From contig NZ_JALN02000001.1 of the NCBI RefSeq assembly GCF_000559085.1, forward strand, positions 2,666,001 to 2,730,000: a stretch of 64,000 bases of DNA. Direction: 5' to 3'. Under the pieces are notes generated by a model. It was not told the DNA's origin. It ran no database searches and saw only the letters and a program-made list of their open reading frames with translations. This DNA is from Mycolicibacterium aromaticivorans JS19b1 = JCM 16368 (GTDB taxonomy: Bacteria; Actinomycetota; Actinomycetes; Mycobacteriales; Mycobacteriaceae). Position numbers and translations under genes: made by a program. Below are positions 37,095 to 41,780 of the stretch, one piece after another (the stretch's first letter is position 1; every line of letters begins with the position of its first letter).

Positions 37095-38961
37095 GGGTGA
37101 TCGTCGCGCCGAAGTTCACGGCGCTCTGCGGCGCCGGGCTCTGCGACACCACGGCATGGGACGGCTGACCGCTGTTCTGCACGTCACCACCCTTGTCCAG
37201 CCCACCGGTCCAGCCGAGGCCGCGCAGCCGCGGCTCGGCGTCGGTCCAGAACATGCCCCGCAGGTCGGGCATCACGAACTGATTGCCCTTCGACACCTTG
37301 ATCTGGATCACGGTGTCTTGGGGCACGGTCTGCCCGTTGGGGGGATCGGTACCGACCACCTGGCCGGACGGCTCGGTGCTGTCCGTCGGAACCGGCAGCG
37401 TCTTGGGGAACCCCGATGCCGTGAGGATCTGTTGAGCGACGTCGACCGTCTGGCCCGCGACCACCGGCACCTCGGCGGTTTGCGGGCCGTTGCCGACGAC
37501 CACCGTGATCTCGTTGGTGATCGCCGAGGTCTGGTTCGCGGGCGGAACCGTCGACAGCACCTTGTCCTTCTGGTCCGGCGTGGACGGTGAGTTCACTTGC
37601 TTGAACTTGCCGAATCCGGCGTCCCTGAGTTTCTGGACGCATTCGCCGTAGGACAGGTTGTTGGAGCAGTCCGGAACCTCTCGCTGCTCAGGCCCGGTCG
37701 AGACGTTGATCACGACTTCGTCGCCGGCGCCGGCCTGTGAGTTGGCCGCCGGATCGGTGTCGATGACCTTCTCCGGAGGCACGGTGTTGTCCGGCTTCTG
37801 CTGAGTGCGGATCTTGAAGCCCTTGTTCTGCAAGGCGGCGATCGCGTCGGCCTGGCTCTGCCCGCGGACGTCGGGCACCTGCAGATTGCGTGGATTGCCG
37901 CTGACCATGTTGATCCCGATGGTCACCACCACGGTCAAGATGGCGAGCACCGCGACCACGATCAGCCAGCGGCCGATGGACCCGCCCGCGCGGTCGTTCT
38001 CGACGAGCGCCCCGTGCCGCGGGAATTCGTCGGTCTCGTCACCGCGGGAGGGCATGGCCGGCGCCGCGTTGAGCAGCGAGGTCCGTTCGGCGGCGCTGAG
38101 CACCTTCGGCGCCTCGGGAGCCTCGCCGTTGTGCACCCGCACCAGGTCGGTACGCATCTCGGCGGCGGTCTGATAGCGGTTGTCCGGGTTCTTCGCCAGC
38201 GCCTTGAGCACCACCGCATCCAGCTCCGGCGAGATGCCCGAATGCTTCTGCGACGGTGGCACCGGGTCCTCGCGGACGTGCTGGTAGGCCACCGCCACCG
38301 GGGAATCACCGATGAACGGGGGCTCGCCGGTGAGGATCTCGTAGAGCACGCAGCCCAGCGAGTAGACGTCGGAGCGTGCGTCGACCGGTTCGCCGCGGGC
38401 CTGCTCGGGCGACAGGTATTGCGCCGTCCCGATCACAGCCGCGGTCTGGGTGACGCTGTTGCCCGCGTCGGCCAGTGCGCGCGCGATGCCGAAGTCCATG
38501 ACCTTCACCGCGCCGGTCTTGGAGATCATGATGTTCGCCGGTTTGACGTCGCGGTGGATGATGCCGTGCTGGTGGCTGAAGTTGAGCGCCTGGCAGGCGT
38601 CGGCGATGATCTCGATGGCCCGGCGGTACGGGATGGGGCCGTCGGTGTGGACGATGTCGCGCAGGGTCACGCCTTCGACGTACTCCATCACGATGTACGG
38701 CAGCGGACCGTTGGCGGTCTCGGCCTCGCCGGTGTCGTAGACGGCCACGATCGCGGGGTGGTTCAGCGCGGCGGCGTTCTGGGCCTCGCGGCGAAACCGC
38801 AGGTAAAAGCTCGGGTCGCGGGCCAGGTCGGCGCGCAGCACCTTGACCGCGACGTCGCGGTGCAGACGTGTGTCGCGGGCCATGTGCACCTCGGACATGC
38901 CGCCGAAGCCGATGATCTCGCCCAGCTCGTAGCGGTCGGAGAGGTGCTGTGGGGTGGTCAT
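37078..38961 (-). CDS. pknB: Serine/threonine protein kinase PknB
   Basis: A 627-residue transmembrane kinase that senses peptidoglycan and controls wall synthesis and growth. The kinase domain (about 1-280) has [13 protein letters not shown], catalytic Lys in [16 protein letters not shown] and DFG, and activation-loop threonines in [20 protein letters not shown] juxtamembrane linker, one membrane segment ([19 protein letters not shown]) and four PASTA repeats follow, the last ending ITLSFAS. Known substrates include MurJ, CwlM and FhaA, all encoded in this window. The ATG overlaps the pknA stop (38958-38961). Confidence 0.98.
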
Positions 38962-40238
38962 CGCGGTTTCTCGTCAGTGTGAACAGCCTCGGACAGCGAG
39001 CCGGCATCCACGCTGGCAGCGCTGAATCGGGGTACCCCGATCTGTCCTCCAGGATTACCGGCGATGTGGTGATCCGTCCAACCCGACGGCGCCGCCTGGC
39101 TGGAGGGGGTGACGGTGTCGGTGACGGTCTGTTCTACGGGCTTGTTGTCCTTGCGGTCCTTGTCGGCCAGCACGATCAGGATGGCGCTGATGATCGCCAG
39201 GGCGCCCAGTACGCCGGCCGCCCACAGCAGCGCCCGCTGACCAGAGGAGAACGTGCGCCGCGGCGGCGGCGGGCGGTGGCTGCCGGTGTTGGCCCGCGGG
39301 CGCGTACCGGTGGGCGGGGCGGCGGCAGGCATCCGCGGCGAACTGCCCGGGATCGACGCCGGGGTGGCGCGAATGGTCGGCGCCGAGTTGGGCCGCGGCG
39401 GACGCCGACCCGCCCGCACCGCGGCGGTCGCGTCGGCGAACTGCCCACCATTGCGGTAACGCATGCCCGGGTTCTTCACCAGGGTGATCTCGATCAGCTC
39501 GCGCACATTCGGCGGGAGGTCGGCAGGCAGCGGCGCCGGCGTCTCCTTGATGTGCTTCATCGCCACCGTCAGCGCGCCGTCACCGATGAACGGCCGCTTA
39601 CCCGAAACCGCTTCGTAGCCAACAACTCCCAGCGAGTACACATCACTGGCGGCGGTGGCGTCGTGACCGAGCGCCTGCTCGGGGGCGATGTACTGGGCGG
39701 TGCCCATCACCATTCCGGTCTGGGTGACCGGCGCCGCGTCGACGGCTTTGGCGATACCGAAGTCGGTGAGCTTCACCTGACCGGTGGGCGTGATCAGGAT
39801 GTTGCCCGGCTTGACGTCGCGGTGAACCAACCCGGCGGCGTGGGCCACCTGCAGCGCGCGACCGGTCTGCTCGAGCATGTCCAGGGCGTGCCGCAGCGAC
39901 AATCTGCCGGTGCGCTTGATCACCGAGTTCAGCGGCTCACCGTTGATCAGCTCCATCACCAGGTAGGCGGTGCGACCTTCGCCGTCCATATCGGTCTCGC
40001 CGTAGTCGTGCACGGCCGCGATGCCGGGGTGGTTCAGCATGGCGACGGTGCGCGCCTCGGCGCGGAAGCGTTCGACGAACTCGGGATCCGACGAGAACTC
40101 CTGCTTGAGCACCTTGACCGCGACCCGGCGCCCCAACCGGCTGTCGACCGCCTCCCACACCTGGCCCATGCCGCCGGTGGCGATCAGCCGCTGCAGCCGG
40201 TACCGGCCGGACAGCGTGACTCCTACGCGCGGGCTCAT
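38958..40238 (-). CDS. pknA: Serine/threonine protein kinase PknA
   Basis: A 426-residue transmembrane kinase acting with PknB on morphology and division. Seen: [50 protein letters not shown], and the activation loop [19 protein letters not shown] Pro-rich linker, one membrane segment ([20 protein letters not shown]) and a short outer tail follow; there are no PASTA repeats. The start ATGAGCCC at 40238 is repeated twice upstream in the tandem element at 40232-40308. Confidence 0.97.
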
Positions 40239-40308
40239 TGCTTGCCTCGCTTCGCTCGCCTGCTGAGGCTCATTGCTTGCCTCGCTTCGCTCGCCTGCGC
40301 GGGCTCAT
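40232..40308 (-). repeat. MIRU-like tandem element at the pbpA-pknA junction with two 12-codon ORFs
   Basis: A 32-base block is repeated exactly at 40232-40263 and 40267-40298 (period 35), and its first 7 bases recur at 40302-40308. On the coding (minus) strand each period carries a 12-codon ORF. The first, at 40308-40270, reads [12 protein letters not shown]; the second, at 40273-40235, reads [12 protein letters not shown]. Each stop TGA overlaps the next ATG as ATGA: pbpA to ORF1, ORF1 to ORF2, ORF2 to pknA. This is the organisation described for mycobacterial interspersed repetitive units, which insert at ATGA junctions. The units are shorter than the usual MIRU. Confidence 0.85.
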
Positions 40309-41780
40309 GACGCCCCCTGCAATGCCGCTGCGATCGTCGCCCGGCCGACCGGGGCGGCCAGCGCGCCGCCGGTGGCGTTCAACCGGTCACCACCGTTTTC
40401 GACGAGCACCGCGACCGCCACTTTGGGGCTCTGTGCTGGGGCGAAGGCGATGTACCAGGCATGGGGAGGGGTGTTGCGAGGGTCGGTACCGTGCTCCGCG
40501 GTCCCGGTTTTGGATGCGATCTGCACGCCGGGGATCGCCCCTTTCTGCTGGGTCATCTGTTCGGCGCCGATCATCAAATCCGTAAGTTTAGCGGCGACCT
40601 GCGTCGATACGGCACGCCGCTGTTGCTGAGGTGCCGCCGTGCTGATGTTCGACAGGTCCGGCCCCTTGAGACTGTCCACCAGGTAGGGCTGCATCATCAC
40701 ACCGGAGTTGGCGATCGTCGCCGCCACCAACGCGTTCTGCAAAGGTGTCACCGCCACGTCTTTCTGACCCATGCTCGACATCCCCAGCGCGGCGGCGTCG
40801 GCCATCGGGCCGATGGTCGACTCCGCTACCTCCAGCGGGATTGGCGCTGGTGGGCTGTCGAACCCGAACGCCTGCGCGGTGTTGCGCAGAGCGTCAGCAC
40901 CCACCCGGATACCCAGTTCCACGAAAGCGGTATTGCACGAGCGGGCAAACGCCTCCCGCAGAGACGCGGTGGGAGCGCTGCCGCACGGGGCGCCGCCGTA
41001 GTTCTCCAGGGTCGCGGTGCTGTTCGGGAGCTGTATCCTGGGGGCGCTGGTGAGCTGATCGTTGTCGGTCACGCCGTTCTGCAACGCCGCCGCGGTAGTG
41101 ATCACCTTGAACGTGGACCCGGGCGGGAAAGTCTCGGCGATGGCCCGGTTGGTCAGCGGCGAGGCGGGGTCGTCGCGCAGCTGCTGCCAGGCGGTGCCCT
41201 GCTCTTCGGTGTCGTGGGTGGCCAACAGGTTGGGGTCGTAGGACGGCGAGGACACCATCGCCAAAATTTTTCCGGTGGACGGCTCCAAGGCCACCACCGA
41301 GCCGCGGCAGCCACCCGTGCAGCCCCGCTGCATCGCTTCCCACGCGGCTTGCTGAACGCGCGGCACGATCGTGGTGTCGACGTTGCCGCCGCGCGGGTCG
41401 CGACCGGTGAAGAAGTCCGCCAGCCGGCGGCCGAACAAGCGCTGATCGGAGCCGTTGAGGATGCCGTCCTCGGCGCGCTCGAGACCGGTGCTGGAGTAGC
41501 GCAACGAGTAGAACCCTGTAATCGGTGCGTAGACAAGGGGATTCGGATAGACGCGCAGGAAGCGGTAGTGGCCGTTGGTGGACACCGAGTAGGCCAGCAG
41601 CTGTCCGCCCGCGGTGATCTGGCCGCGCTGGCGTGAGTACTCGTCAAGCAGCACACGCTGGTTGCGTGGGTCGGCGCGCAGACCATCGGCGCGGAAGACC
41701 TGGGTGATCGTCGCGTTGAGCAACAGCAGCACGATCAACGCCATGATCATCACCGAAATGCGGCGCAGGGAGGTGTTCAT
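40305..41780 (-). CDS. pbpA: Penicillin-binding protein PbpA (class B transpeptidase)
   Basis: A 491-residue transpeptidase that cross-links peptidoglycan, a partner of RodA. One N-terminal membrane anchor (ISVMIMALIVLLLLNATI) leads to a dimerisation domain and the transpeptidase domain with SxxK (PPGSTFKV), SxN (ARSCNTAF) and KTG (ASKTGTAEHG). The ATG at 41780 overlaps the rodA stop and gives the same length as the M. tuberculosis protein. The stop starts the MIRU-like element before pknA. Confidence 0.96.
   Translation of the reverse strand: MNTSLRRISVMIMALIVLLLLNATITQVFRADGLRADPRNQRVLLDEYSRQRGQITAGGQLLAYSVSTNGHYRFLRVYPNPLVYAPITGFYSLRYSSTGLERAEDGILNGSDQRLFGRRLADFFTGRDPRGGNVDTTIVPRVQQAAWEAMQRGCTGGCRGSVVALEPSTGKILAMVSSPSYDPNLLATHDTEEQGTAWQQLRDDPASPLTNRAIAETFPPGSTFKVITTAAALQNGVTDNDQLTSAPRIQLPNSTATLENYGGAPCGSAPTASLREAFARSCNTAFVELGIRVGADALRNTAQAFGFDSPPAPIPLEVAESTIGPMADAAALGMSSMGQKDVAVTPLQNALVAATIANSGVMMQPYLVDSLKGPDLSNISTAAPQQQRRAVSTQVAAKLTDLMIGAEQMTQQKGAIPGVQIASKTGTAEHGTDPRNTPPHAWYIAFAPAQSPKVAVAVLVENGGDRLNATGGALAAPVGRATIAAALQGAS

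Follow-up and report, generated by a model that had tools for sequence, protein, structure and literature searches.

Among the described systems in which a short repeat or a short reading frame is coupled to the gene behind it, two stand closest to the locus reported here. According to the description in PMC2734929, mycobacterial interspersed repetitive units (MIRUs) have a unit length of 40-100 bp, occupy 41 sites in H37Rv, and have been proposed to give differential translation in operons. PMC12548453, citing Supply 1997, describes MIRUs as apparently mobile elements that go in at start codons, with their own ORF coupled at -4 nt and probably little consequence for the gene. The second system is the upstream ORF (uORF) of ppe2 in M. 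tuberculosis. PPE2 was reported to depend on this AUGA-coupled uORF, and evidence of termination-reinitiation at its AUGA overlap was obtained with reporter constructs (PMC11260477). Since MIRU coupling and the AUGA-coupled uORF are described in these reports (PMC12548453, PMC2734929, PMC11260477), the principle of AUGA/-4 coupling by short repeats or uORFs is already known. The ppe2 uORF resembles the pbpA-pknA locus as a short ORF whose stop overlaps the gene start and on which the gene reportedly depends; it differs in that ppe2, as reported (PMC11260477), has one native uORF and a riboswitch, whereas pbpA-pknA carries repeated, acquired units between two operon genes. Searches of the open-access literature brought up no account of the 35-nt unit, of the hotspot or of the chain rule at pbpA-pknA presented below. 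Judged from the sequence, the feature is real: a short repeat of MIRU-like kind lies between pbpA and pknA and leaves the translational-coupling architecture intact.

Anatomy of the pbpA-pknA junction

The window, which is the whole 64,000-nt stretch of Mycolicibacterium aromaticivorans DNA analysed, carries on its minus strand a growth operon in the order fhaB - pstP - rodA - pbpA - pknA - pknB. FhaB and PknB passed the NCBIfam cut-offs; PstP, RodA, PbpA and PknA were below the equivalog cut-offs and were named by Pfam domains and gene order. The pbpA gene for penicillin-binding protein A lies at 40305..41780 (minus strand; PF00905, PF21922), and the Ser/Thr protein kinase gene at 38958..40238 (minus strand; PF00069) takes the name pknA from operon order. 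Between them, the repeat search found two tandem, adjoining 35-nt units (40232-40266 and 40267-40301), 91% identical at a spacing of 35, whose plus-strand copies are identical over the first 32 nt. Read along the minus strand, the elements follow one another as pbpA - ATGA - unit 1 - ATGA - unit 2 - ATGA - pknA. Unit 1 (40274..40308) starts at the ATGA that terminates pbpA, and unit 2 (40239..40273) stops directly ahead of the pknA start. Each holds a predicted 12-codon mini-ORF: the stop of mini-ORF 1 (40270..40308) overlaps the start of mini-ORF 2 (40235..40273), whose stop in turn overlaps the pknA start, so that pbpA, both mini-ORFs and pknA are chained by three four-base stop-start overlaps, all of them ATGA. 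Two exact 32-base repeats of period 35, an ATGA overlap at every junction and the peptides of two 12-codon mini-ORFs had all been given in a preliminary description of this DNA, and the repeat search, the sequence and the translations agree with it on these points.

Each start in the chain is preceded on the minus strand by a Shine-Dalgarno-like motif. GAGG lies 6 nt 5' of the pknA start (40245..40248) and again 6 nt 5' of the mini-ORF 2 start (40280..40283), the duplex of the 20-nt region with the 16S tail being -8.9 kcal/mol in both cases, while AGGGGG at the end of pbpA (40313..40318) may serve mini-ORF 1, with -9.4 kcal/mol. In addition, unit 1 and pknA begin with the same 12 nt (40297-40308 and 40227-40238, respectively), which makes 40297..40308 on the minus strand a candidate target-site duplication.

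We consider it likely that the insert is a short MIRU-like repeat which is tolerated since it rebuilds both the stop-start coupling and the ribosome site. The mobile repeat would consist of a core of about 27 nt and about 8 nt apparently copied from the target; it would have entered at the pknA start codon and then been duplicated in tandem. Each unit would supply a start (its landing ATGA), 12 codons of open frame and, 6 nt ahead of the following ATGA, a GAGG. By terminating and reinitiating at each overlap, ribosomes finishing PbpA could travel through both mini-ORFs and so reach pknA, and the insert would be tolerated for this reason. The mini-ORFs are thus presumed to be translated, with their peptides probably by-products.

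That insertion copies its target is suggested by the insert starts, which match the pknA start of their own genome at 5.09 of 8 nt versus 4.71 for the others, a difference reached in 0/2000 shuffles. For the control positions, nt 13-18, the corresponding figure was 554/2000 shuffles. The target-copy signal is small, with only 10/92 inserts matching their own pknA over nt 2-12.

Copies of the core and the relation to MIRUs

In its own genome the unit stands alone. The 14-mer GCGAGCGAAGCGAG occurs twice in the 6.3-Mb genome, both times as the tandem units, and the exact core (19-mer) is absent from the rest of it. With up to three mismatches, the core 18-mer had two matches in the window, where shuffles averaged 0.22 and 2/100 reached two; a looser core pattern had five matches in the genome, namely the two units and three others at three mismatches, with one in the backward control. 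The preliminary description had held that a unique, invariant sequence would speak against a MIRU-like coupled element. The exact core is indeed unique in this genome, but it is not invariant, as it varies widely among relatives.

Across 297 genomes the core, allowing one mismatch, gave 65 matches in 41 genomes, and the backward control gave four. Fifty-eight of the 65 were placed at pbpA-pknA, and 28 of the 30 loci fetched have both genes; G032, also counted there, has a contig ending inside the unit so that pknA alone is visible. The other seven matches lie elsewhere (two in G267 and one each in G166, G288, G285, G292 and G014), and strict confinement of the unit to pbpA-pknA was dropped as a description on account of such copies. 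G267 and G166 share one intergenic site, with two core copies in the former (L376) and one, with one mismatch, in the latter (L371); the genes flanking it look SDR-like and HAD-like by eye. G288 and G285 have the core at one shared site within orthologous genes (L375:1139-2056, minus strand, and also L372), the homologues of which bear the name PaaI family thioesterase; there it accounts for 11 residues. Among the 120 homologues listed of 1034, at least six have the full motif, which adds 11-12 residues, or 22 in the one of these six (P0007) that has two motif copies; another (P0017) has a shorter piece of the motif, and 103 have a plain 21-residue segment. The whole-codon length of these insertions is partly a matter of detectability, because genes with a disrupted frame escape a protein search. 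In 111 genomes of other genera there was a single one-mismatch core match, which was taken as chance.

These copies bear on whether a mobile element is needed at all. If the pknA start had simply been duplicated in place together with some filler, the tandem arrangement, the 12-nt match to the pknA start and the concentration of core matches at one junction would all follow, whereas the core at the intergenic site of G267 and G166 and inside the thioesterase genes would be left without explanation; we regard plain local duplication as quite unlikely and keep to a mobile repeat.

The unit was then compared with MIRUs. Like them it sits at an NTGA stop-start overlap between genes, at a start codon, is present in tandem copies, and has an ORF that would be coupled at -4 to the downstream gene through a four-base overlap; its ends also bear some resemblance to MIRU-like ends. 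Unlike them it measures 35 nt against the 40-100 bp given in PMC2734929, its core is without the MIRU-like middle, and it is not interspersed: the two tandem exact-core copies are the only ones in 6.3 Mb, and most copies in the genus are at one junction. For profile searches we used 15 elements, three of them from this same junction and none a M. tuberculosis reference sequence, which we take to be MIRU-like from what is generally described for MIRUs and from their placement. The unit matched this profile weakly, with E 0.027 in the window and 4.28 genome-wide, and no match in the genome was better than E 0.29 among the 150 of 7497 candidates scored. A DNA search for the 77-nt element in G000 found none among the best 6 of 23 candidates scored. 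As a query in relatives, the 77-nt insert of L022 gave matches in 52/148 genomes (best six candidates per genome scored). Among 30 MIRU-like loci inspected, the downstream start is at the element end in 23, and six are the pbpA-pknA junction itself; in several elements the first bases repeat those of the downstream gene, as seen by eye. Two further elements were noticed: in one genome (L132) a MIRU-like element stands where, by eye, the operon seems to have its pstP-rodA junction, and in L148 a MIRU-like element is bounded on both sides, exactly or almost, by TAGACCCATGA rather than by a plain ATGA site.

The unit may descend from MIRU-like ends. Aligned with the ends of the 77-nt element of L022 it agrees at 21/27 nt with one deletion, a score reached in 0/300 shuffles; over 16 unit-element-gap combinations the end match needs one or two deletions, and up to 17/300 shuffles reach the score. 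It is possible, though we lean somewhat against it, that the unit is a true MIRU deleted internally, since both of its ends resemble MIRU-like ends and 77-nt MIRU-like elements share the junction in L022, L038 and L082; its size, its lack of interspersion and its weak profile score point the other way. Because the unit is shorter, has no other exact core and lies in a genome where no convincing MIRU was found among the candidates scored, we do not file it as one: in architecture it would work like a MIRU, and membership is not claimed. The preliminary description was right about the MIRU-like layout and the shorter period, while membership in the family is not established given the length, the missing interspersion and the profile score.

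Inserts at the junction in relatives

For comparison, two sets of junctions were used, which share genomes. In the named set (80 named loci and the window), distances were measured at 76 rodA|pbpA, 79 pbpA|pknA and 80 pknA|pknB junctions. An insert of more than 10 nt was present at 34/79 pbpA|pknA junctions, the window included, at 0/76 rodA|pbpA and at 0/80 pknA|pknB; by this comparison, which covers three junctions of one operon, the pbpA-pknA junction is an insertion hotspot across mycobacteria. For the second set, PbpA was matched in 196/198 genomes of the genus and the best 150 of these 196 were used, giving 149 junctions besides the window's, and 11 extra places picked for matching the unit pattern were added. 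Six loci were dropped for want of a pknA match, two at contig ends (L184, L202) and four placed elsewhere in their genomes (L322, L325, L327, L328), which leaves 155 junctions with the window. Two loci (L017, L020) show mycobacterium-like pbpA-pknA sequence under Bifidobacterium breve titles and are probably mislabelled bins.

Inserts are present at 72 of the 155 junctions. Among the 147 that were not picked for the unit, 64 have an insert, 80 a direct ATGA overlap, and in three the overlap is of one base or absent. In the named set, three insert-free junctions (one overlapping by one base, two abutting) are without the four-base overlap, so tight coupling cannot be an absolute requirement. 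The direct ATGA overlap is the commonest state in relatives (45/78 named junctions), in keeping with the view of the preliminary description that the units are a gain; that description takes pbpA and pknA of M. tuberculosis to overlap directly. Taken together, the two sets hold 105 inserts at 92 distinct junctions, with 91 distinct insert sequences in 27 lengths from 20 to 197 nt. Classified by motif, the 155 junctions comprise 83 with no insert, 30 of the 35-nt class, 10 MIRU-like, nine with GCCGGAGGC units, seven and five of two further types, and 11 others. The GCCGGAGGC units of 26/27 nt, the 50-nt inserts and the 65/86-nt inserts occupy the same place as the 35-nt unit with an unbroken chain, and their sequences are unrelated or hardly related to it; some of the arrays other than 35-nt form one in-frame ORF and not a chain of ORFs. 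With up to two mismatches, matches to the GCCGGAGGC unit exceeded the backward control in 12/12 genomes, and of four places viewed two were this junction and two lay in open frames elsewhere. Two genomes named M. peregrinum differ in their junction insert, L041 having the 26-nt GCCGGAGGC type and L045 a different insert, of 35 nt, which suggests that turnover is rapid.

The copy number of the 35-nt unit is 0, 1, 2 or 3 according to species, and 6 in one assembly with N in the array; G266 has six core copies. In species that share 90-98% PbpA identity with the window, there are none in G004, G009 and G166 (direct overlap), one in G024, G053 and G093, and three in G183, and G175 has the same two-unit layout with a second unit the same as the window's. 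Copy number thus differs between species, one genome having been taken per species; the preliminary description had suggested that it may vary between strains. On a protein tree of 75 named rows (4/79 were left out as incomplete) there were 15 changes in all, two for the 35-nt class and four for the MIRU-like class. The DNA tree of the 155 junctions is weakly supported, with 22/152 inner branches starred, and no gain count was drawn from it for this reason. Of the five third codon positions compared in 33 distinct units, four are invariant and the fifth varies once; the idea of a core without synonymous change was dropped on account of this one position, and nucleotide conservation of the core is weak evidence because the motif defining the class itself fixes most of these positions.

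The stop-start chain and its significance

In the chain test, each insert was read from the NTG overlapping the pbpA stop and the stop-start overlaps were followed to pknA. The chain reached the pknA ATGA exactly in 72/72 inserts of the 155-junction set and 33/33 of the 78 named junctions, and was intact at 5/5 further unit-bearing loci, among them L098 with N in its array. Counted by distinct junction, 92/92 keep an NTGA-overlapping ORF chain up to the pknA start; the coupling architecture of the preliminary description, read from sequence, therefore held in every insert checked. Shuffles passed at 26% when the length was changed by -1, 0 or +1 and at 66% at equal length, and no p-value is given because these nulls ignore kinship and whole-unit duplication keeps the chain automatically. 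In L177 and L176 the first unit is 36 nt long, yet pknA is reached, as the first frame runs on into the next unit; since such arrays still arrive at pknA, it appears that the chain rather than the unit is what is conserved, and stop-start coupling is presumably what selection keeps. Two other candidates for the conserved signal were rejected: an RNA structure, as the junction RNA folded no better than shuffles (z -0.83) and no Rfam family matched 39800-40800 at E 1, and a conserved peptide product, because the peptides differ between inserts.

An open frame through every insert would serve equally well if the need were simply to keep the transcript covered by ribosomes, guarding it perhaps from Rho-dependent termination ahead of pknA-pknB, with reinitiation playing no part. 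However, ribosome retention does not of itself call for a four-base overlap at pknA, which is present in all 72 inserts of the second set, and for the ppe2 uORF the authors, as reported in PMC11260477, argued that Rho was not responsible for the loss of expression. We find such a constraint improbable and hold to relay by reinitiation as the preferred reading.

In the named set the mean Shine-Dalgarno duplex was -10.6 kcal/mol for direct pknA, -9.4 for pknA behind inserts and -10.1 for the first mini-ORF, compared with -4.9 for coding background. Behind the 35-nt class it was weaker (-8.8 kcal/mol, n=34) than at direct junctions (-10.2, n=76). This difference, together with a copy number of 0-3 among species so close in PbpA, is what one might see if the inserts were tuned regulators whose relay steps set the PknA:PbpA ratio, copy number being selected and not tolerated. 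That reading seems unlikely to us: the genus shows a wide variety of inserts side by side with numerous direct overlaps, a pattern that reads like tolerance, and any effect on the level of PknA is expected to be modest.

A broader proposal, which we regard as doubtful, would treat the junction as a preferred landing site where unrelated short repeats build mini-ORF relays. The 35-nt unit would then be a separate class of mobile repeat of about 27 nt, persisting where the reading of the host is kept (ATGA-ending chains here, whole codons in the thioesterase), and the PknA kinase would be under a heritable control set by the length of the relay.

This locus offers a natural experiment on translational coupling, in which one operon has several ATGA junctions and, of the three measured, a single one has many different inserts, every one of which keeps the stop-start chain. 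Natural variants that range from no unit to several ahead of a kinase gene make the old proposal that MIRU-type repeats act via translation within operons directly testable.
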